A DNA stretch of 64,000 nt from Bradyrhizobium sp. Y36 (GTDB lineage Bacteria > Pseudomonadota > Alphaproteobacteria > Rhizobiales > Xanthobacteraceae): the NCBI RefSeq assembly GCF_002531575.1, contig NZ_NWTI01000003.1, positions 1 through 64,000 of the forward strand. Reading direction: 5' to 3'. Within the stretch, counting starts at the first letter, position 1. Each line of letters starts with the position of its first letter. The position numbers and the translations under genes are program-made. Shown here piece after piece: positions 39,327 through 55,444 of the stretch. The notes under the pieces are model-generated. The model worked only from the letters and a program-made list of their open reading frames with translations. It was not told where the DNA came from and made no database searches.

Positions 39327-41192
39327 ATGACCATTGCGGGCGCAATCAATTTCACGAACGATATGCCGGATCTGCCGCGCGCGCTGCGGGCGATGGCACT
39401 TGGTCCGGCCAGGCCCAGCTGGCATCGCGAGACCGGCACCATGATGGGAGTTTGCGACGACGCGGAGCTTGCTGTCGCCGGACCGATCGTCGCACTGTTT
39501 CACGGGCGCCTCGACGAAGTCACCGAGCCGGACGTCCCGCGCGCCGGCCTGTCGGCTGCGAATATCGTCATTCACGCCTACCGACGCTGGGGGCTGGACT
39601 TCCCGCTGCGGCTGATCGGCGATTTCGCCTGCGCCGTATGGGACGGCCAAACCAAACGCCTGCTGCTGGCGCGCGACGCACTGGGATTCCAGCCGCTGCA
39701 TTTCTGGCGTGACGGAAACCAGGTCTTCTTCGCGACCGAGCCCCGGGGCCTCCTGACGCATCCGCAAATCGAGCGGCAAGTCGACGAGCGCTGGATCGCG
39801 CGCTGGCTGGCGCTGCTGCCGCAGCACGATGCCTGCACGCTGTATCGCGGGATCAACCGGGTGATCCCGGGGCATGTCGCGCTGTTCGAGGACGGCACCG
39901 CGCGACAATTGCGCTACTGGCGGCCGGAAGAATTGCGTCCCATCCGGCTCGCGCGTGACGAGGACTATGCCGAAGCCATCCGCGCGCTGCTGGACCAGGC
40001 CATCCGCTGCAGGATTGCCGGCGCCGTCGCCGTCGGCAGCCATTTGAGCGCGGGCCTAGACAGCTCCAGCGTCGCGGCACTCACAGCGCGTCAGCTCGAC
40101 CAGCGTGGGCTGCGGCTGTCGGCCTTTACGGCCGTTCCCTCGTCAGGCTTCGACGGCAGCGCTGTCCGCGATCGAATCTGGGACGAAGGCCCGCTGGCGG
40201 CGCGGGTTGCGGAGGCCTATCCCAATATCGATCACGTGCTGGTGCCCAACGAGGGGCCGGCCCTGTTCGACGTCCTCGATCAGATCGGCGATGCCTCCGG
40301 CATCCCCGCCGTGAATACGATGAATCAGATCTGGAGCCATGCGCTCGGCGAGGCAGCAAAGCGCCGCGGCGTCACCGTCATGCTGAGCGGTGGCAAAGGC
40401 AACATGACGATCAGTTATGACGGCTTCGGCTACCTCACCCGGCTGGCGCGCGACGGCGAATGGATCACGCTTGGCAGGCATCTGAGGACGCTCCATCGCA
40501 CCGGGACGTCATGGCTTTCGCTCGGCAACCGGGTGATCGCACCCTTGCTGCCGCCATACATGCGCCGATTCCTGCGCGGGCTGTTTGGCCGGCCGGAACG
40601 AGGACTGCGCGAGTACTCGGCGTTACGATCCGATTTCGCCGACCGCGTCGGCGTCCTGGACGAAGCAGAATCCATGGCCGGCAATGTCGGCAATTCCGAC
40701 CTGGGGCGACAGGACGTGCGACTCGCCGTGCTTGGGCGGACTGACGGCGCGATGGTTTGGCGATCCTACAAGCGCAGATACGGCTTTACACAGTGTGATC
40801 CAACCGCCGACCGACGCCTGATTGAATTCTGCCTTGCGATTCCAGCCGAGCAATTTCTGCTTCACGGAGAAAACCGTTCGCTGATCCGCCGCGCAATGCA
40901 GGGAATTCTGCCCGACATCGTCAGGCTCGAACGGCGCAAGGGTATGCAAGCCGCCGATTGGTCGCGTCACATGATCGCAGCCCGGCCGGAGATCGAGGCT
41001 GAGATCGAAAGACTGGAACGAAGCCCCCTGGCCAAGGCCAGCCTCGATCTGCCGCGCCTTCGCAGTCTGCTCGAAAATTGGCCCGACGGCGGATGGCACC
41101 GGGCCGAGGTCGTCTACGATTACCAGCTCGCGCTGGCGCGAGGATTGGCGACGGGCCGCTTCCTTCGCCGCTTCGAGGGCGGTAACGAGTGA
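39327..41192 (+). CDS. Lasso peptide cyclase (asparagine-synthetase-like, C protein)
   Basis: 621 aa. The glutaminase-like N-terminal domain (~1-190) lacks the Cys2 nucleophile (it begins MTIAGAINF), as in lasso cyclases that do not use glutamine. The synthetase domain has the ATP-pyrophosphatase loop LSAGLDSSSVAAL near residue 240, the lasso-type stretch VMLSGGKGNMTISYDGFGYL near 350-370, and RRKGMQAADW near 535, closely matching the lasso cyclase signature. It would activate an Asp/Glu side chain of the core and join it to the new N terminus. It is convergent with precursor gene A1, only 7 bp between stop codons. Confidence 0.93.
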   Translation: MTIAGAINFTNDMPDLPRALRAMALGPARPSWHRETGTMMGVCDDAELAVAGPIVALFHGRLDEVTEPDVPRAGLSAANIVIHAYRRWGLDFPLRLIGDFACAVWDGQTKRLLLARDALGFQPLHFWRDGNQVFFATEPRGLLTHPQIERQVDERWIARWLALLPQHDACTLYRGINRVIPGHVALFEDGTARQLRYWRPEELRPIRLARDEDYAEAIRALLDQAIRCRIAGAVAVGSHLSAGLDSSSVAALTARQLDQRGLRLSAFTAVPSSGFDGSAVRDRIWDEGPLAARVAEAYPNIDHVLVPNEGPALFDVLDQIGDASGIPAVNTMNQIWSHALGEAAKRRGVTVMLSGGKGNMTISYDGFGYLTRLARDGEWITLGRHLRTLHRTGTSWLSLGNRVIAPLLPPYMRRFLRGLFGRPERGLREYSALRSDFADRVGVLDEAESMAGNVGNSDLGRQDVRLAVLGRTDGAMVWRSYKRRYGFTQCDPTADRRLIEFCLAIPAEQFLLHGENRSLIRRAMQGILPDIVRLERRKGMQAADWSRHMIAARPEIEAEIERLERSPLAKASLDLPRLRSLLENWPDGGWHRAEVVYDYQLALARGLATGRFLRRFEGGNE

Positions 41193-41199
41193 TCGCCTC

Positions 41200-41364
41200 T
41201 CAGGAAAAATCGATTCCACCACTGTCGGGAATGGCTCCGGGTCCATTTTCCGCAGTGTTCGCGTCAGCGATCGTCAGCCCAGGCTTGTGCCAAACCTTGA
41301 CCGGCGTGGACGCACTCGAAGCCTGGGCGGCTTCGCTCTTCTGAGTATTTTCCGACTCTCGCAC
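41200..41364 (-). CDS. Lasso-type RiPP precursor peptide A1
   Basis: 54 aa from the GTG at 41364 (SD AAGGGA 6 nt upstream); an in-frame ATG at 41385 would give 61 aa but has no ribosome site. Leader carries W-H-K-P-G-L, a match to the (Y/W)xxPxL motif read by PqqD-like B1 proteins. The C-terminal part reads ENGPGAIPDSGGIDFS. With Thr at -2 (TA|E) the likely core is 16 residues with Asp at position 9 preceded by Pro, as in paeninodin. The C-terminal Ser is a candidate site for the kinase. Last gene of the minus-strand operon. Confidence 0.8.
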   Translation of the reverse strand: MRESENTQKSEAAQASSASTPVKVWHKPGLTIADANTAENGPGAIPDSGGIDFS

Positions 41365-41396
41365 CACAGGTCCCTTCCAGTCCATTCGCGATCACA

Positions 41397-41424
41397 ATTC
41401 TATCACGCATTGCGGTCGGCACAA
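41397..41424 (-). promoter_or_regulatory. Possible promoter for precursor A1
   Basis: Minus strand TTGTGC (41419-41424), 16-nt spacer, TAGAAT (41397-41402), in the 75 bp between leader peptidase stop and the A1 start. Initiation near 41390 would make the GTG at 41364 the better-placed start. Inference from hexamers only. Confidence 0.3.
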
Positions 41425-41439
41425 CCGATCGTACCGGCG

Positions 41440-41904
41440 TCAATCGTCTAGCGGGACGGTCACATCGTCCTGTCCGGGTCGGAACATGGCAATGGGCCGA
41501 AACAACCCAGCCTGCTCACCGCCAACCACGATCCACCCGCTTGCGAGGCGCAACCAGACATGCGCGTCCAGACCCTGCTCCGATTTGCGGACACCGTAGA
41601 CCAGATCGGCGGCAATGCCTCGCCGCCCCAACAAGCGCTGCGCGGCAATAGCCTGGTCGAAGCAGACTGAGCGCCACGGCACGCGTTTGGACGCGGCCAG
41701 AACAGCCCAACGCACGCGCCTCGACAGCAGGTCCGGATCGTCGACCAGGGCGGAACCCGCAGGACGGGTGAGATCACGCGCGACCCGGTCGAATGGCCGC
41801 ACCTTCAGGGTGAGAGCGGCGAGCGCAAGTTCGCGCACGGCCTCGGCCAGCAGCGGGAGATCGCGGCGGCGCGCCCAGAGCCTGCAGCGTCGCTCAACTG
41901 TCAT
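41440..41904 (-). CDS. Lasso peptide leader peptidase B2 (transglutaminase-like)
   Basis: 154 aa, stand-alone PF13471-type domain. The catalytic Cys lies in SVCFDQAIAAQ and the His in DAHVWLRLA, the usual order and spacing for lasso B2 proteases; GWIVVGG follows. It cleaves the leader with B1. The ATG at 41904 gives normal length; a TTG at 41952 is in frame but lacks a ribosome site. Lies between the two precursors on the same strand. Confidence 0.88.
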   Translation of the reverse strand: MTVERRCRLWARRRDLPLLAEAVRELALAALTLKVRPFDRVARDLTRPAGSALVDDPDLLSRRVRWAVLAASKRVPWRSVCFDQAIAAQRLLGRRGIAADLVYGVRKSEQGLDAHVWLRLASGWIVVGGEQAGLFRPIAMFRPGQDDVTVPLDD

Positions 41905-41996
41905 CGCCCAGCTTCGGCCTGGACACCAGATTCTCGCGACGAACAAGTTCAAGGAAAAATTCGGAACCGAGCCAGCTCGTCAAAGGCCGCAACGGA

Positions 41997-42146
41997 TCAC
42001 GAAAAGTCAACTCCCGCATCCGGAAAAGCGCCCGGAGTATTTTCGGCGCTGTTGGCTTGCAGGATGGTCATGACCGGCTTGTGCCATTCCAAAACCGGCG
42101 TCTCCACAGCGGGTTGCCGTTCTGCCGCACTCTCATGATCCTGCAT
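41997..42146 (-). CDS. Lasso-type RiPP precursor peptide A2
   Basis: 49 aa. The ATG at 42146 follows GAGGA at 7-nt spacing. Leader motif W-H-K-P-V-M then T-I-L as in A1; the end reads ENTPGAFPDAGVDFS. Placing the Thr/Ser -2 rule on S-A gives a 15-residue core with Asp9 after Pro8, the same ring as A1. An alternative core beginning at the Gly of GAFPDAGVDFS would leave only a two-residue tail. Ends in Ser like A1. A possible promoter sits just upstream. Confidence 0.85.
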   Translation of the reverse strand: MQDHESAAERQPAVETPVLEWHKPVMTILQANSAENTPGAFPDAGVDFS

Positions 42147-42182
42147 CGATTCATCCTCGTAAGACCAAGTCTCCTCTACGAT

Positions 42183-42212
42183 ATTATCATCACCGGGAAA
42201 ACAAAAGTTGAA
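42183..42212 (-). promoter_or_regulatory. Possible promoter for precursor A2
   Basis: In the 125-bp, locally AT-rich gap between the sulfotransferase stop and A2, the minus strand shows TTCAAC (42207-42212), an 18-nt spacer and GATAAT (42183-42188). It would let precursor and protease be made in excess over the upstream enzymes. Confidence 0.35.
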
Positions 42213-42271
42213 AAGCGAATCCGCGACTCCAGTCATGCGGTCCCCGAAGAAGCCGACTGGAAAACAACCAT

Positions 42272-43105
42272 TCAATCGTCATAGCCGAGGTCCCGCATCA
42301 TGGGGCCATGATCGCGCAGAATGCGGCTGGCTTGCGCGGCCGTCAGACGCTGACGCCAGCCGCCGGCGGTTCCTGCGCCAAAAAAGCGGTTCGGCGCTTC
42401 CGGCGACGACTCGCGAAAGCCTTCGCTGCTTTCTGCGGCCTGCAGCCTGTCGAAACGGCTGGCATCGATGGCCGAGGCCAGCAGATCCGCTGGCGCGGAT
42501 TGGCCGAAAGCCCGCGCGATGGCCGCAAAGGTCGGCAGTGGATCGGCGAGCAAGTCCTCGTAACGCACGCGCGTCAGATTGAGCCCTGAATCGAGCCAGC
42601 TTGCGGTGTGAGCGCTCCAGCTGGAGACGAGCTGCGGCAATTGCGGCCGCAGACCCTGCGTGCTGTTGCCGATCGACAATTCGGGTCGCGCCATCCAGGC
42701 AATCGCCTCATCGAGTGTGACCCCGTAATAGGTCGCGAACGACGGTGCGACATCGCGCGGATCCCGGATGATCAGGACCACAGCCCCTACCGCCTCGCGT
42801 GGAAACGGTGGCTCGGCAGCTCCAGGCGCCGGCAGCCACGCGTCATGCGTCTTGATCGGGAATGATTTTCCAGGCGGCGGGACCGCCCGGTGGGCAAGCG
42901 GTCGCAATCGACGTTGCTCATCGGGCAGCAAATCAGACGTTTCGATTTCAAGCGCGTTGTCGAAAAACGAGCGATCGGAGGCGATCGGCCCCTCCAACGC
43001 GTTGATGTCGAGCGGGCCATCACCTCGCATGAGGGCCGTCAACAACGCCCGCACCCAGGTGTTGCCCGATCTCGGATAGGACGCGATCAGGTGCAGCCCG
43101 CTCAT
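42272..43105 (-). CDS. Sulfotransferase of the lasso cluster
   Basis: 277 aa PAPS-dependent sulfotransferase. The 5'-phosphosulfate loop SYPRSGNTWVRALL is at residues 9-22 and the 3'-phosphate-binding RDPRDVAPSF near residue 125; RYEDLLADP follows, as in PF00685-type enzymes. The start ATG overlaps the kinase stop (ATGA), so it is translationally coupled. Neither core contains Tyr, so a Ser/Thr hydroxyl, or a hydroxyl created by the oxygenase, is the probable acceptor. The long upstream reading inside the kinase gene was rejected. Confidence 0.9.
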   Translation of the reverse strand: MSGLHLIASYPRSGNTWVRALLTALMRGDGPLDINALEGPIASDRSFFDNALEIETSDLLPDEQRRLRPLAHRAVPPPGKSFPIKTHDAWLPAPGAAEPPFPREAVGAVVLIIRDPRDVAPSFATYYGVTLDEAIAWMARPELSIGNSTQGLRPQLPQLVSSWSAHTASWLDSGLNLTRVRYEDLLADPLPTFAAIARAFGQSAPADLLASAIDASRFDRLQAAESSEGFRESSPEAPNRFFGAGTAGGWRQRLTAAQASRILRDHGPMMRDLGYDD

Positions 43106-44058
43106 GACACCGCGTCGTCCTCGATGCTTCGAAGCAACGAATCGAGCTGGGAGAAATCGCTCCGGCGAGTCAGGCGATAGACATCGGCCGCGCTGACGAT
43201 CTGTCCGATCGCCTTGAAGAGCTCGCCTTCCCGTCCCCAGATTGCGGCGGTGCGCTTCCGATAGATCTGATCGTTCAGCCCTGCCACCGCAGCCATCGGA
43301 GACAGCTTCTGGATATCGGCTTGACCGCTGAGAGCGACGTTCTGGGCGCGGAGCAGATGAACTGCTTTCAGCGGTACCGGCGCGGTCTGAAAGTCGGCGG
43401 CGCCGGCGAAGCGCAGGTAATATTTGCGCTGGCCGAAGCGGTTCGCCTCCAGGCCATCGGATCCCATGCCCATGGCCTCCAGGGAATCCTGCCACAGTTT
43501 GACGCGCGGGAATGCCGGCCATACCACGGGCCCGCCGACGGCGCCGGTATCGATGACGCAGATATCGTCCGACACCAGCGCGTGGCCGCGCCGCGTCAGG
43601 GCGGCTGCCAGCGTCGATTTGCCGGCCCCTGACATCCCTGAAATCGCAACCCCCTTGCCGCCGATCCTTATGCACGATGCATGCAGCGGCATCAGGCCGC
43701 GGCGATGCACGAGAAGGCCCAGAACGGTGCCGAACAGGAACGTGCGAATGTCAGGGGAATCCGCGGCCATTTGCGGATCGACGACGATCTCGTGCGAACT
43801 GCGCAGCCAGTAGCTCGCGACGCCGTCGATGGAAAGGCGGGCCTGCCGCTGCGAAGTGACCTGCAACAGCGGCGAGACATCAAGCGCGCCATCGAGCCTC
43901 GCCGGGACGGCGCCGATCCGAATCGTCAGATCCGGCTCCTGCTCGTCTCCGTTCCAAGGCGCCAGTTCGGGAAGCACGAGGTCGGAGCGGACACGCCAGC
44001 CGCACAAGAACAGATCGCCGCCCGGTCCGGCCGTCACTCTGCCAGATTCACCCGACAT
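43102..44058 (-). CDS. HPr-kinase-like lasso peptide kinase
   Basis: 318 aa. Walker A GMSGAGKSTLAAAL near residue 140 and LVSDDICVID, the HPr kinase/phosphatase core, without the HPrK N-terminal domain. Homologues in lasso clusters (paeninodin PadeK family) phosphorylate the C-terminal Ser of the precursor; both precursors here end in Ser. Overlaps the PqqD-like gene by 11 nt and the sulfotransferase by 4 nt. Confidence 0.88.
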   Translation of the reverse strand: MSGESGRVTAGPGGDLFLCGWRVRSDLVLPELAPWNGDEQEPDLTIRIGAVPARLDGALDVSPLLQVTSQRQARLSIDGVASYWLRSSHEIVVDPQMAADSPDIRTFLFGTVLGLLVHRRGLMPLHASCIRIGGKGVAISGMSGAGKSTLAAALTRRGHALVSDDICVIDTGAVGGPVVWPAFPRVKLWQDSLEAMGMGSDGLEANRFGQRKYYLRFAGAADFQTAPVPLKAVHLLRAQNVALSGQADIQKLSPMAAVAGLNDQIYRKRTAAIWGREGELFKAIGQIVSAADVYRLTRRSDFSQLDSLLRSIEDDAVS

Positions 44059-44332
44059 CGATCAGCCGCTGATCGCGCAAGGACGCAAGCAGTTCGAGAA
44101 CATCGGCCGTGATCTGCTCACGATCGCCGCGGTAATTTGCCGCCATGGCCTGGCAGAGCGCTTCGACGGTCAACGGCCGCGCCAGGCGCCGCCAGATGTC
44201 GCTGGCGATCTCGTCCAGCCCGCAATACGTGCCACCCTCGATGCTCATCAGGATGAAGTTGCCGTCAACCTCGGTGGCAAGATGCTTCTGTGCCCGGGAT
44301 ACTGTATCGGTGAGGCTCAACGTGCTGCGCAT
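44048..44332 (-). CDS. PqqD-like precursor recognition protein (lasso B1)
   Basis: 94 aa, PqqD winged-helix fold: VDGNFILMSIEGGTYCGLDEIASDIWRRL followed by VEALCQAMAANYRG. Such proteins bind the (Y/W)xxPxL leader motif and deliver the precursor to B2 and the tailoring enzymes. The ATG at 44332 begins the domain; upstream residues are low-complexity. Overlaps the kinase gene. Confidence 0.88.
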   Translation of the reverse strand: MRSTLSLTDTVSRAQKHLATEVDGNFILMSIEGGTYCGLDEIASDIWRRLARPLTVEALCQAMAANYRGDREQITADVLELLASLRDQRLIDVG

Positions 44333-44460
44333 ACGGGATCGCCGACTTTCACGATATCGAAAAAACTGAGGTCCTTTAGCGTCTCCGTGCCGCAGATACA
44401 AATCTGCAGTCGAAACCGTCAGTCAGAACCATGCGGACCGGAACCGATCTTCGCGGCCGC

Positions 44461-45087
44461 TCATTCCGCCCATCGATGGCGATACCAGCAGTTGATGGCA
44501 AAGCGGCTGTCCAGAAACGCACCGGACGGGCAGGACACCCGTTGCACCTGATGGGGGACCCATGACGGAAACAGGAGCAGTGTGTCCGGGCCGGGTGGGA
44601 GATCGACGAAGCGTCGTTCGCCGTCCGCTGCGGGCGCCATCGCAAACAGCCTCAGATCGCCGCCGCCAAATCCCTTGGGCTGGCGGTGAAAATAATAGAC
44701 GCCGGTCAAAGCCCGCGCCGAACTGGCATGAGGCTCGTCCGTTGCGGTATCGATGTGCTCCGCAAAGAAGGCGCCGTCGCCATGGGCCACCAGTTCGAGT
44801 TCGAGCGGAGCAAGATTGACGGCGGAGAGGCCGAGATCCTGAATGGCCCACGCGACGACGCTGAGGAATCGCGCCTCGAGCTCGGGACGCAGATCGCCCA
44901 AGTCCCTCAGCATGCGCGAGACCCGAATGGTTTCGTTCAGCCTGCCCTTGTTGACGCGCGTCGACACGAAATCGCTTTCGCGACGGGCCGCGTAGGCCAG
45001 CAACCGTTCGACCAACGCCTCTCCCAGAAACGACTCGACGCGTCTGTAGGGCGGCAGTTGCTCCAGTGCCTTTTGAAGCGGGATCAA
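44461..45087 (-). CDS. 2-oxoglutarate/Fe(II)-dependent oxygenase of the lasso cluster
   Basis: 208 aa, prolyl-4-hydroxylase-type fold. Iron ligands His111, Asp113 (EHID) and His179 (WVPHQVQRV), 2-oxoglutarate Arg195 (DSRFAINCW). The TTG at 45087 is used because PYRRVESFLG, the family start, follows soon and its TTGA overlaps the stop of a 32-codon frame (45084-45182). First enzyme gene of the minus operon. Predicted to hydroxylate the lasso core or a residue of it; the target is unknown. Confidence 0.85.
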   Translation of the reverse strand: MIPLQKALEQLPPYRRVESFLGEALVERLLAYAARRESDFVSTRVNKGRLNETIRVSRMLRDLGDLRPELEARFLSVVAWAIQDLGLSAVNLAPLELELVAHGDGAFFAEHIDTATDEPHASSARALTGVYYFHRQPKGFGGGDLRLFAMAPAADGERRFVDLPPGPDTLLLFPSWVPHQVQRVSCPSGAFLDSRFAINCWYRHRWAE

Positions 45088-45182
45088 TGCCGACGGTCCC
45101 GGCGGGTTGAGAACTGCCGCACGTCGTGCCGGATCGCCTGTTCGGCCATCGCGGCCTCGCCTGCACTCGTGGTTTTCGTCAT
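45084..45182 (-). CDS. Possible 32-aa leader ORF coupled to the oxygenase
   Basis: Begins with ATG preceded by TAAGGCGA and ends TGA overlapping the oxygenase TTG (TTGA). The peptide starts MTKTTSAGEAAMAEQAIRHD and is basic at the end. It may be a translation-coupling leader, or the oxygenase may really start here with a frameshift; the sequence alone cannot decide. Confidence 0.3.
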   Translation of the reverse strand: MTKTTSAGEAAMAEQAIRHDVRQFSTRRDRRH

Positions 45183-45460
45183 TCGCCTTAGCCGGGGCTG
45201 AACGCCTGTGCTGTCGCCAATATCCACACATCCGCTTGCGTATCAATCCCGATCTGCCGATAGTCGGCTCGCGCGAGGGCATCAATGTCGAAGAACACCG
45301 GACCTAATGGAGGGCCAAACGCCGCCCGGATGCGCGAGCTTCTTCCCGATGGAGACATCCACCGCGAAGAACTCCCGACCTTCGCCAAATCCCTCCCTGC
45401 GATCCGCCGAGGACACCCGGTCGCCACGACCGACCAGCCTGGCAACGCGTCCAGCGGCCC

Positions 45461-47263
45461 ATGACCGGCATGCCTACTTTTCTGCGCCTGATGGCGACGG
45501 CGCCGCGCGGTCGCCTGATCTTGCTTCTCGTCCTGATGGCTCTCGGCGGCATCAGCGAGGGCGTGGGCTTGATCCTGCTCGTTCCCTTGCTCGATCTGCT
45601 CGGATCGGCGCCGGAGACCGGGGCAACGCATGGCCTGAACCGCCTGCTCGCGACATCCGGAATCCCGCTGACGTTGCACGGCGTCCTGACACTCTTCGTC
45701 GGTGTCGTGATGGCGCGAAACGGAATTCAGTTTGCGCGCGAACGGCTGGCGACGAGCGTCCAGTTCGAGTTCGTCGACGCCCTGCGCCGCGACTGCCTCG
45801 ATGCGATACTCCATGCCGACTGGCGCTGGATCGTCGGGCAACGGCAGGCGGATCATGCCAGCCTCCTGCTGACGGAGATCAACCGTGTCGGCCTCGGCCT
45901 CAACGCCGGACTGGGTTTGCTGGCCGGATGCGCAATCACGCTGGCCTATCTCTCCACCGCGATCCTGCTCTCGTGGAAGATCAGCGCGCTCGCGATCATC
46001 AGCGGCGGTAGCATCTTCCTTCTGCTCGCGCGTCATCGCCGTGCCGCATTGCGCCTCGGCCAGACACTGGGACAAGCCAGCCGTGCGCTGCACGCAGACG
46101 TTCAAAACAGTCTCTCCGGCATCAAGCTCGCCAAGATTCTTGGCGCCGAGCACCGCCAGGCCGAGGCCATTCTTTCCACCAGCCGGAACCTGCGGACCTC
46201 GCAATTGGCGTTCAGCTCCGATGCGAGCCTGTCGCGGGCGCTGTTCCAGACCGCAGGCGCGGCGCTCGTGGCCGTCTATATCTATGTCGGGCTGACCATC
46301 TGGCAGGTGCCCATGGCGGAGATCCTGACGCTGGTTGTCGTCTTCGCGCGCCTGATCCCGATGTTCGGAAACCTTCAGCAGCAATCGCATCTATGGCTGC
46401 ACGCCCTGCCCGCCTATGCCGAGGTCGAGCGATTGATCGCGGAATGCAAACGGGTCGGACGGCCGAGGGCCGGCCGCGACGATCCGGCGCTCCCGCCGCA
46501 GCGGGAGATCCGGCTCGACGGCGTGACCTTGTGCTATGATGGACGCCAAGAAGCCGCGCTCACTGAGGTCTCGCTGCGGTTCGCGGCCCGAACCACGACG
46601 GCGATCGTCGGGCCATCAGGGGCGGGCAAGAGCACGCTGGTGGACCTCCTGGCAGGGCTTCTCGGTCCGGACCGTGGCACGGTGTCGGTGGACGGCGTCG
46701 AACTGACCCCCGCCCTGCAGCCACGCTGGCGCAGGGCCGTCGGCTATGTTCCGCAGGAACTGTTTCTGTTCAACGACACCATTCGCGCCAATCTACTCTG
46801 GGCCCGACCAACCGCGAGCGAGGACGATCTGCGGCACGCGCTGAAACAGGCCGCTGCCGAATTCGTCCTGCAGCTTCCTCGCGGCCTCGATACGATGATC
46901 GGCGATGCCGGAGCACGTTTGTCCGGAGGCGAACGCCAGCGGATCGCACTTGCCCGCGCGCTTCTGACGCGACCGGACGTATTGATACTCGACGAGGCCA
47001 CCAGCGCCCTCGATTTCGACAGCGAGAGGCAGGTCCAGGCGGCTCTCGACGCCCTTCGTGGACGGATGACGATCTTCATCATCGGCCACAGATTGCTCGA
47101 CCTCGACCGCGCCGACATGGTGGTGATGCTCCGTGGCGGTCGCGTCGCTGCCGCCGGACCATGGACCAGTGTCATGCGCTCATCTGTCGCGTCTGTGCCC
47201 GACGCCGGATGCGATCCTGGCGGCGGATCGGCACCGGCATCCGTCGATCCTCGGAACCGATAA
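45461..47263 (+). CDS. Lasso peptide ABC exporter (D protein)
   Basis: 600 aa half-transporter: membrane domain (~10-320, six segments), then ATPase with Walker A GPSGAGKSTLVDLLAGLLG, signature LSGGERQRIALARALL and Walker B VLILDEATSALD. Size and position match lasso D exporters, which confer export and self-immunity. Divergent from the oxygenase, with ~370 bp of spacer holding both promoters and the 32-aa frame. Confidence 0.87.
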   Translation: MTGMPTFLRLMATAPRGRLILLLVLMALGGISEGVGLILLVPLLDLLGSAPETGATHGLNRLLATSGIPLTLHGVLTLFVGVVMARNGIQFARERLATSVQFEFVDALRRDCLDAILHADWRWIVGQRQADHASLLLTEINRVGLGLNAGLGLLAGCAITLAYLSTAILLSWKISALAIISGGSIFLLLARHRRAALRLGQTLGQASRALHADVQNSLSGIKLAKILGAEHRQAEAILSTSRNLRTSQLAFSSDASLSRALFQTAGAALVAVYIYVGLTIWQVPMAEILTLVVVFARLIPMFGNLQQQSHLWLHALPAYAEVERLIAECKRVGRPRAGRDDPALPPQREIRLDGVTLCYDGRQEAALTEVSLRFAARTTTAIVGPSGAGKSTLVDLLAGLLGPDRGTVSVDGVELTPALQPRWRRAVGYVPQELFLFNDTIRANLLWARPTASEDDLRHALKQAAAEFVLQLPRGLDTMIGDAGARLSGGERQRIALARALLTRPDVLILDEATSALDFDSERQVQAALDALRGRMTIFIIGHRLLDLDRADMVVMLRGGRVAAAGPWTSVMRSSVASVPDAGCDPGGGSAPASVDPRNR

Positions 47264-47451: not shown

Positions 47452-48684
47452 ATGATGCCCCTTGTGACTTTCGTCGTCGGGACGGTGCCCGACATCATCA
47501 AGTCGATCGATGTTGCGCGAGAGCTGGCGACGAACGGACTCAGCGTCTCGATCTACGATACGCTTCAGAACAGGTCGGACGAATTCGATCGGCATCGCGA
47601 TGTCCGAATCATCCGGAGCAGCGTGGTGCGCGCCGAGTGTCGTGACGATCTGGACTGGGTGGCCAGTTGCGCAGCCGAGATCGCCGAGCTGTGCGGCGAT
47701 CTCGTCGTAGTCCAGGGCGATACTTACAGCGCCCTGGCCGGCGCCCACGGCGCCGTCAGGGCCGGCGCGGCGCTCGCCCACATCGAAGCGGGACTTCGCA
47801 GCCATGACCCGCTGAGCCCGTTTCCCGAAGAAATGAACCGCGTGTTCATCGACACGCAGAGCGACCTGCTGTTCTGCGCAACCCGGACCGATCTCGACGA
47901 CCTCTGTGCGACCGCGAGCGTCGCGGACAAGAAGAGCTTTGTCGTCGGCAACACGGTCTGCGACCCGATCTTCCAGCACCGCGACCAACTGGCTTCGGCC
48001 GCGACATGGCCGAACGGCGTTCTCGTCTCATTGCACAGGCGCGAGAACTACCGGCATCGCGAGCTGATCCTGAAATCGCTCGCGAGGCTCATCGCGAGCT
48101 TTCCCGAGACTGAATTTCGTCTGCTGAAGCGCGGTCTGCTGGCGGCGAGCGAGGCCGCGGATTTCGGCGCCAACGCCACCATGATCGGCTTGACGGAACA
48201 TCTGCATTTTCTCGAAATGCTGACCGGGTCCCAGATCGCGATCTGCGATTCCGGTGGAATTCTGGAGGAAGCCGTGACGTTGGGCGTGCCGGTCGTGTGC
48301 CTGCGCCGGACGTTGGAGCGTGGTCGGCTGGTCGAGGGTGTCGACTGCATCGATCCGGCCGACGTTGAAGGTCCGCAGTTGCCGCGGCTGATCGAACGTC
48401 TGCTGTCCCGGCAGCGCGGCGGTCGCGGTCCGCTGCGCGAGACTTTTGGTGACGGCCAAAGCGCCAAGCGGATCGCGACACTCATTCTCGATCACCTCAA
48501 CGACAGCGGCGTTCGTGACGCGAAGGGCCGCACCGATCCTGATCGCGACCAGCAGGGGATCCTCGTTCCGTTCGCGCGTTCCAGGACGGCGGAGAGCCCG
48601 GGCCTCGTCAAGGACCTTCGGACCGGCCAGCGATCCGGGCGCTTCACTGCGGCCGCCTCGGGAGCCGATGCGTGCGATTCCTGA
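47452..48684 (+). CDS. UDP-GlcNAc 2-epimerase-like protein (WecB family)
   Basis: 410 aa. Core signatures HIEAGLRSHDPLSPFPEEMNR and SLHRRENYRHR and CDSGGILEEA match WecB. The N-terminal GTxPExIK motif is loosened to GTVPDIIKS, and the C terminus has ~50 extra polar residues, so it is a divergent member. Would supply UDP-ManNAc for the polysaccharide; the GT26 module downstream fits that. Confidence 0.82.
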   Translation: MMPLVTFVVGTVPDIIKSIDVARELATNGLSVSIYDTLQNRSDEFDRHRDVRIIRSSVVRAECRDDLDWVASCAAEIAELCGDLVVVQGDTYSALAGAHGAVRAGAALAHIEAGLRSHDPLSPFPEEMNRVFIDTQSDLLFCATRTDLDDLCATASVADKKSFVVGNTVCDPIFQHRDQLASAATWPNGVLVSLHRRENYRHRELILKSLARLIASFPETEFRLLKRGLLAASEAADFGANATMIGLTEHLHFLEMLTGSQIAICDSGGILEEAVTLGVPVVCLRRTLERGRLVEGVDCIDPADVEGPQLPRLIERLLSRQRGGRGPLRETFGDGQSAKRIATLILDHLNDSGVRDAKGRTDPDRDQQGILVPFARSRTAESPGLVKDLRTGQRSGRFTAAASGADACDS

Positions 48685-48702
48685 CGCCGGACGGCTGACG
48701 CC

Positions 48703-49989
48703 ATGACCCATGATCGACAGCACAAGAACGCTAACGAGGACGTGCTGCTCTCGGAGCTGGGGCGATCCGTGCTCCGTTTCTATCTGGACTTCGCAGCGCT
48801 GCTGGTTCCGCTGGCGTTGCTGGCGGCGCTGACGGCGGCGATCTACGTCCACACAAAGCCGGTCTACGAGGCCACCGGCCTGCTCGATGCACCGAAACTG
48901 TCGCTCGACGAATGGCGCCATCTCGGCCCACTGCTTCCGGACTCTCGCCTCATCAGCGGGACGTTCGGGCAACTCGGATGGCTCAACGGCGATGGCTCGG
49001 AAGCGACGCCGCATGCGGTGGCGGTGCGCAAGCGCTTCGCGTCCCGGACCTTCTGGGAAGGAAGTCTTCAGTACCGCAGCGCGTTGCGGCGCGAGGACGT
49101 GCGCGACGCGCCCGGCTCAGATCCGAAAGCGTCCACGACCCTGGGCATCGATGTCGCGTTACGGGCGCCCGGCCGCGAGATCGCGACCGAGCTGATGAAC
49201 GCGATCGCGCGTCATGTCGGTCAGGCCCTGTCCTGGTCGATGCTCGACACGTTCCTGCGCGATCGAAGGGACGCCACGGTCAGCCGGAAGGCCGAGCTGG
49301 AGGTCATGCTGACGAAGCTGAGCTTCGCACTCACGCAGACCGAGACGCGCATCCTGGACATGCGCCAGCTCGTCGATGCATTCCCGGATCTGAGGGACGC
49401 CGGCGGCAACACCATCGTCTCGCCCGAGAATGGTGGCGGCCGCTATCTGTCTCCGACGGCTCAACTCGTCGCGCTCAAATCGACGCTGATCGATCAGCGA
49501 GGGCAGATCGCGACCGCGCAGCGCGAGCTCGATATCCTTCGGTGGTACGAGCAGTTCTTCGCACATGCGGCTGCGCCGCCTGACGACGTTCGCTCCGGTT
49601 CGCGCCTCGCCGACTGGCTCGACGGCAAACGCAAGGCGTTCTTTTCCGCGCCGGCGGGCGCGGCGATCCAGGTCGACCAGGAGATCGCGTTCGCCATCGC
49701 CGAAGCGCGCACCCGCGGCGATCGGATCGTCTACGGCGCCGCGCCGATCGTCGACCCCCGGCCGGTCGCGACCCGGTCGCCGCTGCCGGTGGCGGGCGGC
49801 GTGTTCGTTGCGGCGATGTTGCTGTTCGGACTGCTCTTGAGCATCTATCGCAGCGCAAGGCAGATCGACGGGCCCTCCCGGACGACGCCTTGGCTGGCCT
49901 CGAAGGACCCACTCTTTGCATGGCTGCCGCAGCGACTGCGCGGCGTCCTGTTCCGCTACGAGCGGCGCTACCCACACAAGACACCCTAG
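48703..49989 (+). CDS. Polysaccharide chain-length determinant-like (Wzz) protein
   Basis: 428 aa. Two membrane segments (~27-50 and ~365-385) bracket a long helical, coiled-coil-prone periplasmic region, the Wzz/PCP layout. No C-terminal tyrosine kinase domain, so it is PCP-1/2 without BY-kinase. It follows the epimerase by 18 bp. Confidence 0.65.
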   Translation: MTHDRQHKNANEDVLLSELGRSVLRFYLDFAALLVPLALLAALTAAIYVHTKPVYEATGLLDAPKLSLDEWRHLGPLLPDSRLISGTFGQLGWLNGDGSEATPHAVAVRKRFASRTFWEGSLQYRSALRREDVRDAPGSDPKASTTLGIDVALRAPGREIATELMNAIARHVGQALSWSMLDTFLRDRRDATVSRKAELEVMLTKLSFALTQTETRILDMRQLVDAFPDLRDAGGNTIVSPENGGGRYLSPTAQLVALKSTLIDQRGQIATAQRELDILRWYEQFFAHAAAPPDDVRSGSRLADWLDGKRKAFFSAPAGAAIQVDQEIAFAIAEARTRGDRIVYGAAPIVDPRPVATRSPLPVAGGVFVAAMLLFGLLLSIYRSARQIDGPSRTTPWLASKDPLFAWLPQRLRGVLFRYERRYPHKTP

Positions 49990-50009
49990 CCAAGCCGGAT
50001 AGCCGGCGT

Positions 50010-50933
50010 TCAGGCAGACACCCTCTCCGCCAGCAAACGGTTCAAGATGCCCTGCAGCCCGAGCTGGGCGCGCCAGCCGAGCAGCGCGTAGGCCTTGCTG
50101 GGGTCGCCCAGTTGGCTGGCACGATCGGAGCGGCGGCGGCGCGTCTCGTCGATCTCGATGCGGATGGTTCGTCCCAGGCAAGTGGCAAGACAGTTCACGA
50201 GACGCTCCACCGAGTGCTCCTCGCCCGAGCACAGATTGAAGACGTCGAGTGGCTGGGGCCGTGCATCCGCCAGGATCGCAAGCAGTCCGCCGGCCACCTC
50301 GTCGGCATGCAGGTAGTCGCGGCGCGAGTCGAGATTGCCGAGCCTTACGACGTCCACGTCTGGGCGCTCCAGCTGCGCAAGGATATCGGGAAGCAGATGC
50401 GCATTCGGATCGTCACGGCCGATCGTGTTGAATATCCGCGCGATGCGGCCGGTGGCGCCGCTGCGCTCGGACCATAGCCGCAGCTGGATTTCGTTGGAGA
50501 GTTTGGACAGGGCGTAATTGTCCATCGCCTGCGTCGGTGATGTCTCTTCCTGGAGCGGGCCGTCCGTCCATTGGTAGACCGCGCCGCTGGACGCCAGAAC
50601 GACGCGCGCGACCCTGGCTTCGGACGCAGCAAGGAGCACCGTTTCCGTCCCCAGGACATTGACGTCGAGGCACCGTCGCCGGTCGATCTCGCAGGTCGGA
50701 ATATGATGGAGCGCCGCCAGATGCACGATCGCACCCGGTCGAAAATCACCAATCAACGCCTGCATCTCGCGCTCTTCGCGGATATCGCAGCGGTGCGCGA
50801 TCACGGCGTCGGCCGGCATCGGCAACCCGCTGCTTAGGTCGTCGACGACCGCGACGACATGGCCTTGGCCCGCCAGGCGGGAAACGAGGCGTCGTCCGAT
50901 CATGCCGGCACCGCCCGTCACGCACACCCTCAT
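50010..50933 (-). CDS. NAD-dependent epimerase/dehydratase
   Basis: 307 aa extended SDR. Glycine motif TGGAGMIGRRLVSRL at residues 6-20, catalytic YALSK near 165, and HLAALHHIPTCEIDR. Modifies an NDP-sugar (4-epimerase or dehydratase); exact sugar unresolved. Overlaps the ligase gene by 4 nt (ATGA). Confidence 0.85.
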   Translation of the reverse strand: MRVCVTGGAGMIGRRLVSRLAGQGHVVAVVDDLSSGLPMPADAVIAHRCDIREEREMQALIGDFRPGAIVHLAALHHIPTCEIDRRRCLDVNVLGTETVLLAASEARVARVVLASSGAVYQWTDGPLQEETSPTQAMDNYALSKLSNEIQLRLWSERSGATGRIARIFNTIGRDDPNAHLLPDILAQLERPDVDVVRLGNLDSRRDYLHADEVAGGLLAILADARPQPLDVFNLCSGEEHSVERLVNCLATCLGRTIRIEIDETRRRRSDRASQLGDPSKAYALLGWRAQLGLQGILNRLLAERVSA

Positions 50934-52252
50934 GATTGCGCCTCCCACGTGGTCTCGGCAGCGCTTCGCTCGGCACCGGGCTCGGTTGCCGGAGCAGAAA
51001 AAACCAAGGCTGCCGCCACCGAGATATGTAGCGCGAACCCGTGGAACGGCAGGTAGAAATCAAATAGCTCAAGGCCCAGTATGACGACGAGCCACGTCAG
51101 CGCCCACCGGCGGCCGGTGTTGTCGCGCGTATCGGACAGAGCGGGCAAGCCAAGCGTCATCAAGAGCCCGGTCATGGCGAGGAGCCCCATCAGTCCGGTT
51201 TCCGAGAGAATTCCGAGGACAAGATTGTGCGCATGCAGCTCACCACGCAGGAATCGCCCTCCGGTAAAATCCGGCGTCAGGAACTGAAACACCCCGGGAC
51301 CCAAGCCCCACCAGGGCCGCCCGGTCCAGGCATCAAGGGCGCCCTGCCAGATATATGTCCGGCCAAGCGAGAACATGGTGGCAAAACTTTCGCGAGATGC
51401 GCTCGTCAGCTCTTCATAGCGAAGCCAGATCACCGCCGCGACGAGCCCGGCCAGCAGCGCCAGCACGGAAAGGGCGAGCCAGCGCTGGCGGCCCCGTCTC
51501 GTGATGGCGAACACCACCGACAGCATGAGAAGCGGCACCACCGGATTGCGCGCCTCGGTCAGCAGCAATGTAGCCGCCGCGCCGGCAATCGCCGCGGTCA
51601 GATCCGGCGTACCGATCGCGCCTTCCGCACGCAACTGCGTCGCGATGACGGCGACGACCACCGCGATGGCGCCGAAGGTTGCGGGATGCTCGTAGAGCCC
51701 GATGATGCGCGGCATGTATCTGAGTGCATCGGAGCCGTGAAACAGCACGCCGAGCCGCGCGATCCAGTCGATGCCGTATCGATCGCCCAGCCCGACGGCG
51801 AGCCCGATCCAGAGCGCGATGATCAGCGCGCGGCCGGCTGCTCCGCGCAGATGGGGATAGAGGAGAAGCAAATTGAGGATGCACCAGAGCATCAAGAGCT
51901 GCGTCGCATAGCGAACGGCAAATTTCGCTGCGATCGCGCGGTGATCGGAGAGCGCGGTCGAGATGACGAGGACGCAGAGGCAAGCAACGATCGCGACGAA
52001 CGGAGCCCGCAGCCGGCTCGCGATGCCGCGCTCCCTGACCAGGAAGAAGACCGTCGATCCCAACGCGACGAGACGAAGCGCGGTTGAGCCGAGCGACAGC
52101 CCCTGCCCCTCCTCGAATGCGCGACCGATCACGACGTGCTGCAGGCAGAACAGCAGGTACAGAAGCGCAAGACCGATGGTGGCGGCGGTTTGCCGCACCG
52201 TTACGGATGCGACCTTGGGTCTCGTGTCCGGCGCCATGCTCGAGAAGGCCAT
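50930..52252 (-). CDS. O-antigen ligase/polymerase-like membrane protein (Wzy_C)
   Basis: 440 aa, ~12 membrane segments. Large periplasmic loop carrying GELHAHNLVLGILSETGLMGLL, the Wzy_C (PF04932) signature His region. Ligation or polymerisation of repeat units. Start at 52252, 1 bp from the stop of the GT4-GT26 gene. Confidence 0.78.
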   Translation of the reverse strand: MAFSSMAPDTRPKVASVTVRQTAATIGLALLYLLFCLQHVVIGRAFEEGQGLSLGSTALRLVALGSTVFFLVRERGIASRLRAPFVAIVACLCVLVISTALSDHRAIAAKFAVRYATQLLMLWCILNLLLLYPHLRGAAGRALIIALWIGLAVGLGDRYGIDWIARLGVLFHGSDALRYMPRIIGLYEHPATFGAIAVVVAVIATQLRAEGAIGTPDLTAAIAGAAATLLLTEARNPVVPLLMLSVVFAITRRGRQRWLALSVLALLAGLVAAVIWLRYEELTSASRESFATMFSLGRTYIWQGALDAWTGRPWWGLGPGVFQFLTPDFTGGRFLRGELHAHNLVLGILSETGLMGLLAMTGLLMTLGLPALSDTRDNTGRRWALTWLVVILGLELFDFYLPFHGFALHISVAAALVFSAPATEPGAERSAAETTWEAQS

Positions 52253-52253
52253 G

Positions 52254-54140
52254 TCAGGGCAGCCTGGCCTTGGTCGCCGCCATTCGCTTTTCGAACCATG
52301 CGCGTGCCAGCAACGAGGCATAGATCGCATTGGTGCGGAGATAGCGCATTGCCAGCCGTCGCGGCTCCAGCGACAGCCTGAACAGCCATTCCATTCCGAT
52401 CTTCTGCACCGCGCGCGGCGCGCGTGGGAGTCGACCCGACACGACGTCGAACGTGCCGCCGACGCCCATCGCAACGGGAACGGCGAGGCGCTCCCAATTG
52501 TCCCGCAGGAATATCTCCTTCTTCGGCGAGCTGATGCCGATGAAGAGGAATGCCGCGCCCGAGGCGTTGATCGCGTCGACGACGGCGGCCTCTTCGTGTT
52601 GCTCGAAATAGCCGCCGCGCACACCCGCAATCAGGAGCGAGGGCCAGCGCTGGCGCAGCCGCTCCGCCGCTGCGTTGACGACCTCCGGCCGCGCGCCGAG
52701 GAGGTAGATCGCAAGGCCAAGTCTGGACGCCTGCTCACAGAGGTCCAGCATTAGATCAATCCCGGCATAGCGCTCGCCTTTGACGCCGAGGGCAGCAAGA
52801 CCGAGCGCGATGCCCTTGCCATCGACGTGGACGAGCTCGGCATCCCGAAGGGCCCAAGACAGATCCGGATCGCGGCGCGCGTCCACAAGCTTGGCGACGT
52901 TCAAACCCTCGATCCGCATGCGCGGTTCTCGTCCCCGTCCGGCCGCCGCGGCGCGACGCAGCAGTTCTGCGCTGTCGAGCAGATCGACCGGGCAGCCGAG
53001 AAACCAGACTCTCTCGTTCAGCGGGGCATCCGGCCTTTCCGCGACCGCCGGCACGATCCCGGACTGGCAGGGCCGGCGATGCGCTCCGTATAGTTCGAGA
53101 ATGAGCAACGTCCGGCGCTCCCATGTGAAAGCTTCCCTGGTCCGCTCGGTCACGTCGGGCGGCATGCGCCGCCCCGCGATGTCGTTCACCGTCGCGGCCA
53201 ATGCTTCGACATCGCCCAATGGATAGAGTCCGTCGGTCCAACCTGCGGTGGCAAGTATCGCCCGATTGGCCGGAATGTCGCTGGCGACGACATTGCAGCC
53301 CATCAGCAGCATCTCGATCAGGACCGTCGGGCCGCCTTCGGCCGCGGACGGCAGCAGGAAACAGTTCGCACCCGCCGCCATCGCGGCGACCTCCGCGTCG
53401 GGCGCAAAGCCGTGGAACCGAACACGCGGCGCGACGCCCGCATGCGCCGCCAGCTTTTGGAGGCGATCGCGATCCGGCCCCCGGCCGACGATATGCAGCA
53501 CCGCCTGCGTCAGGCCCTCCCGGGACAGCGCCAGGATGGCATCGTCGAGACGCTTCACCCGATCGAGCCGCCCGACATACAGCAGGGATGGATCGCCTTC
53601 CAGGCGCCGCGGCGGCGCCGCCCGCGACAAGATCGCCGTGTCCAGCACGCAGTTCGGCAGAATAACCGGCGAACTTGCAGCCAGCCCACGGCTCCGTAAC
53701 TCGTCGGTCCAGAACCGCGCGAGCAGAACCACGGCGTGGCTTCCGGCAAGCAGGCGGCGTTCGACGGTGCGGTCCCATAACCATTTTGCGGCCCGCTTCA
53801 GCGCAGCGTCGTCATCGTAGTAGCAATGCGGCGTGTAAACGAGGCGCTTGCCGCGCACCCGCGCCATCGCCGCCGCAACTCCCGCGATCGGATTACGGGA
53901 GCCGTGAACATGGACGATGTCGGCCCAGCCCACATGATGCCAGAGGCCGCCAAACGCATCGGCCTTCACCTCATAGCCCGGCTCTGTCTCGGCAAGGAAT
54001 GCCCCCGGCGCAACAATGCGAACGTCGAACCCAAGCCTGGCGGCGGTGGTGGCCAGGCCGTGAATGTGCCGCGCCACGCCGCCTCCGCCTTGATGCGGAG
54101 CGAAATCGCGATGGACGTGCAGCAGCCGGAGACCTCTCAT
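52254..54140 (-). CDS. GT4 glycosyltransferase - GT26 (WecG/TagA/CpsF) fusion
   Basis: 628 aa, two enzymes in one chain. Residues ~1-370: GT4 with LLYVGRLDRVKRLDDAI and the EX7E-like region around PSAAEGGPTVLIEMLL. Residues ~385-620: GT26 with GVKGERYAGIDLM, FIGISSPKKEIFL and GVGGTFDVVSGRLPRAPRAV, the WecG/TagA motif that transfers ManNAc(A)-type sugars to lipid-linked acceptors. Two consecutive glycosyl additions by one protein are implied. Overlaps the polymerase gene by 4 nt. Confidence 0.88.
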   Translation of the reverse strand: MRGLRLLHVHRDFAPHQGGGGVARHIHGLATTAARLGFDVRIVAPGAFLAETEPGYEVKADAFGGLWHHVGWADIVHVHGSRNPIAGVAAAMARVRGKRLVYTPHCYYDDDAALKRAAKWLWDRTVERRLLAGSHAVVLLARFWTDELRSRGLAASSPVILPNCVLDTAILSRAAPPRRLEGDPSLLYVGRLDRVKRLDDAILALSREGLTQAVLHIVGRGPDRDRLQKLAAHAGVAPRVRFHGFAPDAEVAAMAAGANCFLLPSAAEGGPTVLIEMLLMGCNVVASDIPANRAILATAGWTDGLYPLGDVEALAATVNDIAGRRMPPDVTERTREAFTWERRTLLILELYGAHRRPCQSGIVPAVAERPDAPLNERVWFLGCPVDLLDSAELLRRAAAAGRGREPRMRIEGLNVAKLVDARRDPDLSWALRDAELVHVDGKGIALGLAALGVKGERYAGIDLMLDLCEQASRLGLAIYLLGARPEVVNAAAERLRQRWPSLLIAGVRGGYFEQHEEAAVVDAINASGAAFLFIGISSPKKEIFLRDNWERLAVPVAMGVGGTFDVVSGRLPRAPRAVQKIGMEWLFRLSLEPRRLAMRYLRTNAIYASLLARAWFEKRMAATKARLP

Positions 54141-55444
54141 GCCCCGGCCTCGGCAACTGCATCCGGGCGCTCCTGGGCGCGCGACAGCAGGCGCATGGCG
54201 CCGCCGGTCAGCAACCAGAGCGAAGCCGACCCGGACACTGACAACATATGATCGGACGTCACCAGCGTCGTCGCGAGCCCGATCATCAGCCAGAAAATCG
54301 CCAAGGCGAAGTGCGCCTGGTGCTCGCGATCGGCGAACCAGAGGCGCCTCAGACAGACGGCATAGAAGATCAGCAAGGCAAGCGCGGCCAACACTCCGCT
54401 CTGGTAAGCGATCGAGAACACCGCGCCTTCACCGCCTCCGACATTGGTGATTGAAGCCTGTGCGGCAATCGGCCCCTGCCTGCCGATGCCGTAGCCCACC
54501 ACGGGGATCTGAAAAAGGCCGTCGATATTGCGCCGGAGCGCAGCCCAGTGTCCCGGGCTCGATCCATCCGTCTGATTGATCGTTGCGTCCACGACGTCTC
54601 GTGTCGCAAGGCCGATGACCAGCACCACGGCCGCAGCCACGGTCAACCTCGCCAGCGGATGGCGCCTCAAGGCGCGACTCGTCATGAGATAACCGGTAAG
54701 AGCAATCGTTCCGGCGAGCATCGCGCCGCGGGTGCCGGACATCCAGACGCCGGCGCACAGTCCGAGCAGGATCAAGAGGAAGATCGCGACATGCGTCGCA
54801 GTGAGCCGCGCTGGCCCCGCCGCGACGAGCAAAACTGCGGCAACTGCCAATACCATGCCTTGCGCCAGCGGCGCCGCGAGAAGCCCGGCGGCCCGGCGCG
54901 TCTGATCGAGATCGATGAAGAAATTATAGGGTAGGCCGGTATCCGGTTCGGCTCCATAGATCATCCCCTTCACCTCGGCCATGTAGGAGGGAAACTGGAT
55001 CGTCCGCGTCCAGAACTCGGTGTGATGGATGTCCCATGCGCCGAAAGTGGCGCTGAGGCAGGCAATGATCACGAGACAAGCGACCAGGGCCCGGATGTCC
55101 GCGGCATCGCGGACGCAGTAATATCCGACGAGAAAGAACAGCATCGGGATCAGAAGCGTGCCGAACGATCCGACCAGGACACCGAGCGGAACTCCGCTCT
55201 TTGCGCTCGTCGCCAGTGAAAGGGAAATCAGCAGGCCATAGAGCAGAAACGGCAGCAGCAGCGAGCGCGAGATCCGCACTGTCGCCAGGCACAGGCATGC
55301 GGCGAGAACCACGGTCATGTCGCGGACCACGCGGGCCCACCCCACCTCCGGCAACGCTCCCCCCTGATAGGCCCACGCCGCGGCAAAATCCCCAAGATGA
55401 ATCCACACCACAAGAACCAGAAGGTAAGCTCGTCTAACGCTCAC
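54137..55444 (-). CDS. Polysaccharide polymerase-like membrane protein (Wzy)
   Basis: 435 aa, ~12 membrane segments with a large loop near residues 160-200 and 330-355 (VVGYGIGRQGPIAAQASI). Starts with GTG overlapping the previous stop (GTGA). Candidate repeat-unit polymerase; the other membrane protein may be the ligase. Confidence 0.7.
   Translation of the reverse strand: MSVRRAYLLVLVVWIHLGDFAAAWAYQGGALPEVGWARVVRDMTVVLAACLCLATVRISRSLLLPFLLYGLLISLSLATSAKSGVPLGVLVGSFGTLLIPMLFFLVGYYCVRDAADIRALVACLVIIACLSATFGAWDIHHTEFWTRTIQFPSYMAEVKGMIYGAEPDTGLPYNFFIDLDQTRRAAGLLAAPLAQGMVLAVAAVLLVAAGPARLTATHVAIFLLILLGLCAGVWMSGTRGAMLAGTIALTGYLMTSRALRRHPLARLTVAAAVVLVIGLATRDVVDATINQTDGSSPGHWAALRRNIDGLFQIPVVGYGIGRQGPIAAQASITNVGGGEGAVFSIAYQSGVLAALALLIFYAVCLRRLWFADREHQAHFALAIFWLMIGLATTLVTSDHMLSVSGSASLWLLTGGAMRLLSRAQERPDAVAEAGA

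Follow-up and report, generated by a model that had tools for sequence, protein, structure and literature searches.

A lasso-type gene cluster of Bradyrhizobium sp. Y36 with a putative kinase, sulfotransferase and 2-oxoglutarate/Fe(II) oxygenase

Gene content and layout of the locus

A stretch of 64,000 nucleotides of Bradyrhizobium sp. Y36 (hereafter the window) contains a lasso-type locus at positions 39327-47263. Domain searches with Pfam and NCBIfam identified a cyclase (C), two precursors (A1 and A2), split B1 and B2 proteins, an ATP-binding cassette (ABC) exporter (D), a kinase (K), a sulfotransferase (ST) and a 2-oxoglutarate (2OG)/Fe(II) oxygenase (OX), that is, the full gene set listed by the original prediction for this DNA. 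K, ST and OX are interleaved with the precursors, as had been claimed, and judged by its genes the locus is a complete lasso-type cluster with three predicted tailoring enzymes. With moderate confidence we propose that it yields two short lasso-type peptides, on which K acts at the C-terminal Ser, OX at a core proline and ST at a core hydroxyl.

The minus strand carries, from 5' to 3', OX-B1-K-ST-A1-B2-A2, with K, ST and OX in the direction of both precursors, whereas C and D are on the plus strand and flank this set. The predicted gene overlaps of 4-11 nt at two junctions are present (K/ST, 4 nt, 43102-43105; B1/K, 11 nt, 44048-44058). Because of the opposite strands the locus is not the single operon that had been suggested, C and D being transcribed separately from the minus-strand set. 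A promoter scan gave a single site where shuffled sequences averaged 1.2, which is not above chance. The features are collected in Table 1.

Table 1. Features of the lasso-type locus (window positions)
Feature	Position	Strand	Basis and remarks
Lasso cyclase C, AsnB-like, no Cys2, SAGLDS ATP loop	39327..41192	+	Pfam/NCBIfam, tree, motifs
Precursor A2 (61 aa; WHKPGL in the leader)	41200..41385	-	Open frame; one homologue, P0001
Predicted A2 core NGPGAIPD-SGGIDFS	41203..41247	-	Register of relatives; start one residue earlier (Glu) possible
Leader peptidase B2	41440..41952	-	NF033537; start codon uncertain
Precursor A1, ~49 aa	41997..42146	-	ATG at 42146; further in-frame ATG at 42236
Predicted A1 core NTPGAFPD-AGVDFS	42000..42041	-	Register of relatives
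3'-Phosphoadenosine-5'-phosphosulfate (PAPS) sulfotransferase ST	42272..43105	-	Pfam; nearest solved TEG12/Teg14; YPRSGNTWV loop, KTH, RDPRDV
HPr-kinase-like precursor kinase K	43102..44058	-	Pfam; H126, GxxGxGKST, D164 D165
B1, PqqD-like leader-binding protein	44048..44332	-	ATG at 44332; frame open from TTG at 44401
2OG/Fe(II) oxygenase OX, conserved part	44461..45078	-	Frame open to 45285; Pfam, fold, Fe/2OG residues
ABC exporter D	45461..47263	+	Pfam/NCBIfam; retained in L006 and L007

Identity of the lasso-type proteins

Since C starts with Met-Thr (MTIAGAIN) it has no Cys2, in agreement with the original prediction; SAGLDS is retained at residue 241. Its top NCBIfam model was the lasso cyclase NF033535 with 257 bits (curated cut-off 525), and asn_synth_AEB reached 149. 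B2 was above the threshold of NF033537 (80 bits, cut-off 33). B1 exceeded the cut-off of Pfam PqqD (65.8, cut-off 23.4) and scored 54.7 with the NCBIfam lasso-PqqD model (cut-off 80). In a cyclase tree of 39 rows the window C falls inside a clade of 19 rows (100/99) made up of cyclases from like loci, and E. coli AsnB forms a separate pair (100/99) with a second AsnB-like gene of the window; deep forks are weak and lasso cyclases are not resolved as one group against AsnB. This second Asn-synthase-like gene (57728-59683, minus strand) has a full glutaminase domain, and its tree partner is E. coli AsnB rather than a lasso cyclase. The earlier lasso-type assignment is supported by the B1/B2/C/D set, the grouping of the cyclase with those of other B1/B2 loci, the leader motif and the ring-acceptor register.

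Precursors and core register

Both window precursors end in DFS and have a leader motif resembling YxxPxL (WHKPGL and WHKPVM), with Trp in place of Tyr as in most relatives; the precursor plan is [W/Y]xxP, about eleven residues and then the core. Since a protein search with A2 retrieved a single homologue (P0001, 82% identical), conservation was taken from genomes, where precursors of related loci (L numbers) were found by a pattern accepting W, Y or F.

The preferred register gives the window cores an 8-residue ring with acceptor Asp8 and puts Ala13 at leader position -2. It is supported by the related pair L047 (QQAA, then core NNGLVAPGDGTFSPSPTGS) and L048 (QQTN, then core NNGLVAPGDGTFSPSPSGS), whose cores both begin NNGLVAPGD and of which the former has Ala at -2 where Thr is expected. 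Under a start rule that looks for Thr first, 52 of 63 precursors have Thr at -2 and nine have Ala. According to the accessible text of PMC10368454, all earlier reported lasso precursors had Thr(-2), to which Ile(-2) was newly added. The Thr-first rule places the A1 core two residues late and the A2 core one early, and the register of the relatives was kept instead; for L035 it is doubtful where the core begins. For A2, Thr12 also allows a core that starts from Glu, with a 9-residue ring to the same Asp (Asp9).

Asp or Glu is present at core residues 7-9 in 59/63 cores (shuffles: mean 18.5, maximum 32), a result partly favoured by the candidate filter, which required D/E at places 21-26 after W/Y. 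The C-terminal residue is Ser in 55/63 cores, including both of the window, where the antepenultimate residue is Asp. Six close cores share N1, P3, G4, P7, D8, G10 and the DFS ending, with Ser or Ala at position 9 and Gly or Thr at position 2, so that the C-terminal Ser is their sole conserved hydroxyl. In the A1 core of L006 it is the only Ser/Thr/Tyr. At L036 (10631-11078) the cores AGPTPITEPTSSS and SGATPITEGGVSS have 13 residues each; since they lack a bulky tail residue, a stable threaded form of these is doubtful.

Distribution of the tailoring genes

The nearest named loci, from Bradyrhizobium sp. MOS003 (L006, cyclase 93%) and OK095 (L007, 76%), have the entire gene set. Gene order is retained, beyond what chance would give, in L006, where proteins are 84-94% identical (65% for A1), and in L007, where the range is 63-76% (one precursor, 55-56%). 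K (E <= 1e-30) and the neighbouring UDP-N-acetylglucosamine (UDP-GlcNAc) 2-epimerase (E <= 1e-90) both occur in a single one of 146 sampled genus genomes, the window's own, hence the two appear to form a single rare accessory region. The epimerase is part of a polysaccharide-type locus after the exporter (47452-62651), which also has a glycosyltransferase, a methyltransferase and other genes. At 61419-62651 on the plus strand, 14 kb from the lasso genes, lies a nucleotidyltransferase of the NTP_transf_5 family (PF14907); HprK kinases and nucleoside triphosphate (NTP) transferases are called typical of paeninodin-like biosynthesis in the available part of PMC13381572.

In a class sample of 385 genomes, relatives of C (E <= 1e-50) occurred in 15, the B2 gene in 33 and relatives of OX (E <= 1e-25) in seven. 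Six of these seven OX genes are located in lasso-type loci with K and ST, the exception being the weakest (G457, L094). Two sets of stretches, all from genomes of the window's class, were then scanned, the former with our own profiles. The former comprised 56 stretches (window, L006, L007, L032-L084) selected by C or B2 matches, 21 of which have K and ST together (L075 with a weak ST). The latter comprised 44 stretches selected by kinase match (28/82 genomes in the order of G150, plus G194), with K and ST together in 22; L111 and L112 overlap, and L115 and L141 are without C, B1 or B2. OX genes scoring at least 270 bits were found in the window, L006, L007, L035, L047, L048, L070, L092, L093 and L118, in 10/10 cases with K and ST, and lower-scoring ones accompany K and ST in L105, L120 and L131 and as a fragment in L048.

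In the cyclase tree the OX loci take three places, each a starred clade: window, L006 and L007; L035, L092, L070, L118 and two of the three L048 cyclases; and L047, L093 and the remaining L048 cyclase. The trio has thus come together, or been retained, on more than one occasion. The combination had been called unusual, which was not supported, since K and ST are frequent beside lasso genes in the stretches covered and the trio recurs in several families. As far as we searched the literature, the locus belongs to a recurrent, undescribed alphaproteobacterial subtype.

Some related genomes are rich in such genes. L048 (1-19000) has two kinases and three each of cyclases, precursors and ST genes within 19 kb of one genome, and a single genome (G194; L039, L045, L047, L143-L146) has seven lasso-type kinase genes at separate places. 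Small frames near four K+ST loci (L037 13824-13964, L053 11651-11791, L070 4996-5139, L072 14932-15075) have a common ending of the type QPFLVLNFCI..SGIYPSRN, which, we presume, resembles phage tail-collar proteins.

Predicted roles of the tailoring enzymes

K scored above the cut-off of Pfam Hpr_kinase_C, and H126, K147, D164 and D165 are invariant across six kinases, corresponding to the His-Lys-Asp-Asp motif of HPr-kinase homologues (PMC9266682 and PMC10368454, accessible text). By family precedent, i.e. C-terminal Ser phosphorylation and polyphosphorylation of lasso peptides (PMC8498205, PMC9266682, in part), and by the conserved Ser, K likely phosphorylates the C-terminal Ser. HprK-type phosphorylation of Ser3 is described for a different RiPP (ribosomally synthesized and post-translationally modified peptide) family (PMC13381572, available part); Ser3 as target, as for BsfK, was ruled out for K because the window cores have Pro at position 3.

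OX scored above the cut-off of Pfam 2OG-FeII_Oxy_3. Its Fe/2OG residues are intact (H108xD110, H176 and R192, numbered in the 205-residue domain), where we take HxD...H to bind the iron and the Arg to bind 2OG. The AlphaFold model of these 205 residues has a mean predicted local distance difference test (pLDDT) score of 94.6, and its best structural neighbours are the P. putida prolyl 4-hydroxylase (4iw3) and PHD2, with Tpa1 lower down. From this PHD fold and the association of OX loci with proline described below, OX is most likely a prolyl hydroxylase.

In the discovery set, proline per core averaged by locus 2.26 in nine OX+ loci against 0.92 in 12 OX- K+ST loci, with p=0.0009, to be read with ten residues having been tested; this set included L071, which has no acidic acceptor and was dropped from later sets. 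For replication a one-sided test was fixed beforehand and new loci were read by a fixed rule: three OX+ cores had 1, 3 and 2 Pro compared to 14 OX- cores (p=0.035; 0.031 with the 12 cores scoring >10). The pooled, corrected set gave 2.12 Pro per core with OX (n=17) and 0.92 without (n=26; p=5e-5), and p=0.008, 0.020 and 0.023 when related cores were collapsed at 60, 50 and 45% identity. It leaves out the new candidates below 9 on the precursor profile, namely the second candidate of L103 and those of L109, L122 and L135 (the last OX+, five Pro); with those four kept the values are 2.28 and 0.93 (n=18, 28; p=2e-5; p=0.008 at 60%). Asp hydroxylation as by CanE was considered for OX and is disfavoured, as both fold and proline association point to Pro and Asp counts are alike (p=0.30).

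ST scored above the cut-off of Pfam Sulfotransfer_1, and among solved structures it is closest to the glycopeptide sulfotransferases TEG12 and Teg14, with StaL lower down. YPRSGNTWV, KTH and RDPRDV are all present, which we take to be the 5'-phosphosulfate loop, the motif of the catalytic His and the 3'-phosphate motif. Non-terminal Ser/Thr/Tyr per core amount to 4.96 in loci with ST and no OX, 3.05 in kinase-only loci and 2.94 in loci with both ST and OX; L075 was counted as K+ST on a weak ST match (125 bits), and the kinase-only group includes six precursors from the first locus reading, with the L063 candidate omitted. The contrast between ST loci lacking OX and kinase-only loci is clear in the new set (p=0.002). 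Thus counted, ST seems to go with extra core hydroxyls and, together with OX, with fewer native hydroxyls but more prolines.

Proposed pathway and alternatives

By family precedent B1 would bind the WxxP leader, B2 would remove the leader, C would join the new N-terminus to core Asp8 to form the ring and D would export the product. K likely phosphorylates the C-terminal Ser, OX likely adds a hydroxyl to one of the core prolines (Pro3 or Pro7) and ST likely sulfates a core hydroxyl, possibly the hydroxyproline made by OX. In the preferred order the linear precursor would be tailored before leader cleavage and ring closure, and tailoring on the linear precursor is described for paeninodin, BsfA and canucin in the accessible literature. 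Since the C-terminal Ser is the sole conserved hydroxyl, a hydroxyproline made by OX for ST is the simplest way to separate the acceptors of K and ST in each of the cores, and the proline-rich OX+ cores together with the L006 A1 core suggest such a relay from OX to ST. According to the original prediction the product may be phosphorylated or sulfated, and hydroxylated; as the sulfate may sit on the hydroxyl made by OX, phosphate and sulfate may coexist, with OX most likely hydroxylating proline. Related loci in other Alphaproteobacteria indicate that sulfated lasso peptides probably form a class. That a relay of hydroxyproline, sulfate and phospho-Ser founds a widespread alphaproteobacterial class of this kind is a tentative proposal, possible yet short of an even chance.

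Several observations weigh against these readings. C and B1 both fall short of the thresholds curated for their NCBIfam lasso models. Besides Pro, the discovery set differed in Phe (p=0.015) and Ser (p=0.045), and its hydroxyl contrast alone was non-significant (p=0.21). Two of the three OX+ replication cores (L118, L120) are closely related to discovery cores, so that the replication is thin, and collapsing the pooled cores at 40% identity gave p=0.25 with no power left. Support for the relay is correlational: OX+ cores have no fewer hydroxyls than kinase-only cores, which are equally hydroxyl-poor, and the window cores hold other hydroxyls usable by ST (Thr2 in A1, Ser9 in A2). Weaker OX-like genes occur with a kinase and no ST in the stretch (L119, L135, L137), and that of L094 has no lasso genes nearby. 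CanE, the lasso 2OG hydroxylase described in the accessible literature, targets Asp. Finally, the product is a prediction from the genes, and reactions, target residues, order, threading and activity are all inferred.

One alternative to the relay is that the three modifications are independent, ST acting on native Ser/Thr (Ser9 in A2, Thr2 in A1) and OX on Pro or Asp. Most cores of ST loci have several Ser/Thr and ST often occurs without OX; since positions 9 and 2 vary among the close cores and the L006 A1 core has neither hydroxyl, we consider this doubtful, if with some chance of being right. K and ST could instead share the C-terminal Ser, by competition or with ST capping the phosphate to a mixed phosphate-sulfate in the manner of PsmN, OX being independent. 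This would suit the single conserved hydroxyl of the six close cores, and second-layer enzymes on phospho-Ser are known for pseudomycoidin, as are kinases placing several phosphates there, according to the parts of the literature available. A separate acceptor fits better with the additional non-terminal hydroxyls of K+ST loci lacking OX, and no such mixed peptide was found in the accessible literature searched, which makes sharing unlikely.

Since the tails span no more than 6-7 residues and carry a lone bulky Phe in the penultimate position, an unthreaded branched cyclic (macrolactam) product was also considered. The cores are short (14-15 aa) and those of the L036 relatives shorter still, but the B1/B2/C set and the register match lasso clusters, and we think it improbable. 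It is very improbable that any of K, ST and OX is part of the adjacent polysaccharide locus and leaves the peptide unmodified: polysaccharide genes follow directly after D and the epimerase also adjoins in L006 and L007, whereas the three are found again beside lasso genes in further families and sit among B1, B2 and the precursors. If separate acceptors for K and ST, with OX on proline, are right, the K+ST module would mark a sizeable alphaproteobacterial group of doubly charged lasso peptides, and a genome rule would follow for the third modification, OX signalling a core proline. The L006 A1 core, with its single Ser/Thr/Tyr, is an unusually clean substrate and could let one mass-spectrometry experiment distinguish the sites of all three enzymes.

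Comparison with known systems

For sulfotransferase genes in some Firmicutes kinase clusters PMC8498205 cites Zhu 2016c. Our literature search, with most subscription papers outside its reach, found no recognisable report of a sulfated or prolyl-hydroxylated lasso peptide. The three matches to 'sulf' in an interlocked-peptide review from 2026 (PMC13352647) are unrelated to sulfated lasso peptides. The accessible text of PMC10040529 gives a lasso B2, a sulfotransferase, an 'aspartyl beta-hydroxylase', a PqqD and an Asn-synthase gene with adjacent numbers as co-occurring with halotolerance, and does not discuss a lasso cluster alongside those numbers. In the literature as far as accessible, what is known singly is C-terminal Ser phosphorylation, the sulfotransferase gene in some Firmicutes kinase clusters and Asp hydroxylation by CanE (PMC8498205, PMC9266682).

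Closest in build are the paeninodin-type clusters (PadeK, ThcoK and the proteobacterial SyanK), which likewise have split B1/B2, C, an exporter, an HPr-kinase homologue and a C-terminal Ser. There the kinase is in some cases accompanied by a nucleotidyltransferase or sulfotransferase gene, while the Y36 locus has K, ST and OX (PMC8498205, PMC9266682, in part). Like the latter, some Firmicutes kinase clusters include a putative sulfotransferase gene, for which the accessible text of PMC8498205 mentions no oxygenase, activity or product. The Bsf cluster of Bradymonas sediminis shares B1, B2, a kinase, an 8-residue ring and a non-Thr residue at leader -2, but this residue is Ile, the kinase targets Ser3 and the partner gene is a nucleotidyltransferase (PMC10368454, available part).

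As to OX, CanE of canucin A is also a 2OG/Fe(II) hydroxylase and modifies a lasso precursor in its linear form, yet it is from Streptomyces and hydroxylates a C-terminal Asp, and the accessible descriptions, on which the comparison is based, mention no kinase or sulfotransferase. The P. putida prolyl 4-hydroxylase (4iw3), PHD2/EGLN1 and Tpa1 have the fold and Fe/2OG residues of OX, but their substrates, according to the entry titles, are EF-Tu, HIF and Rps23 and not RiPP precursors.

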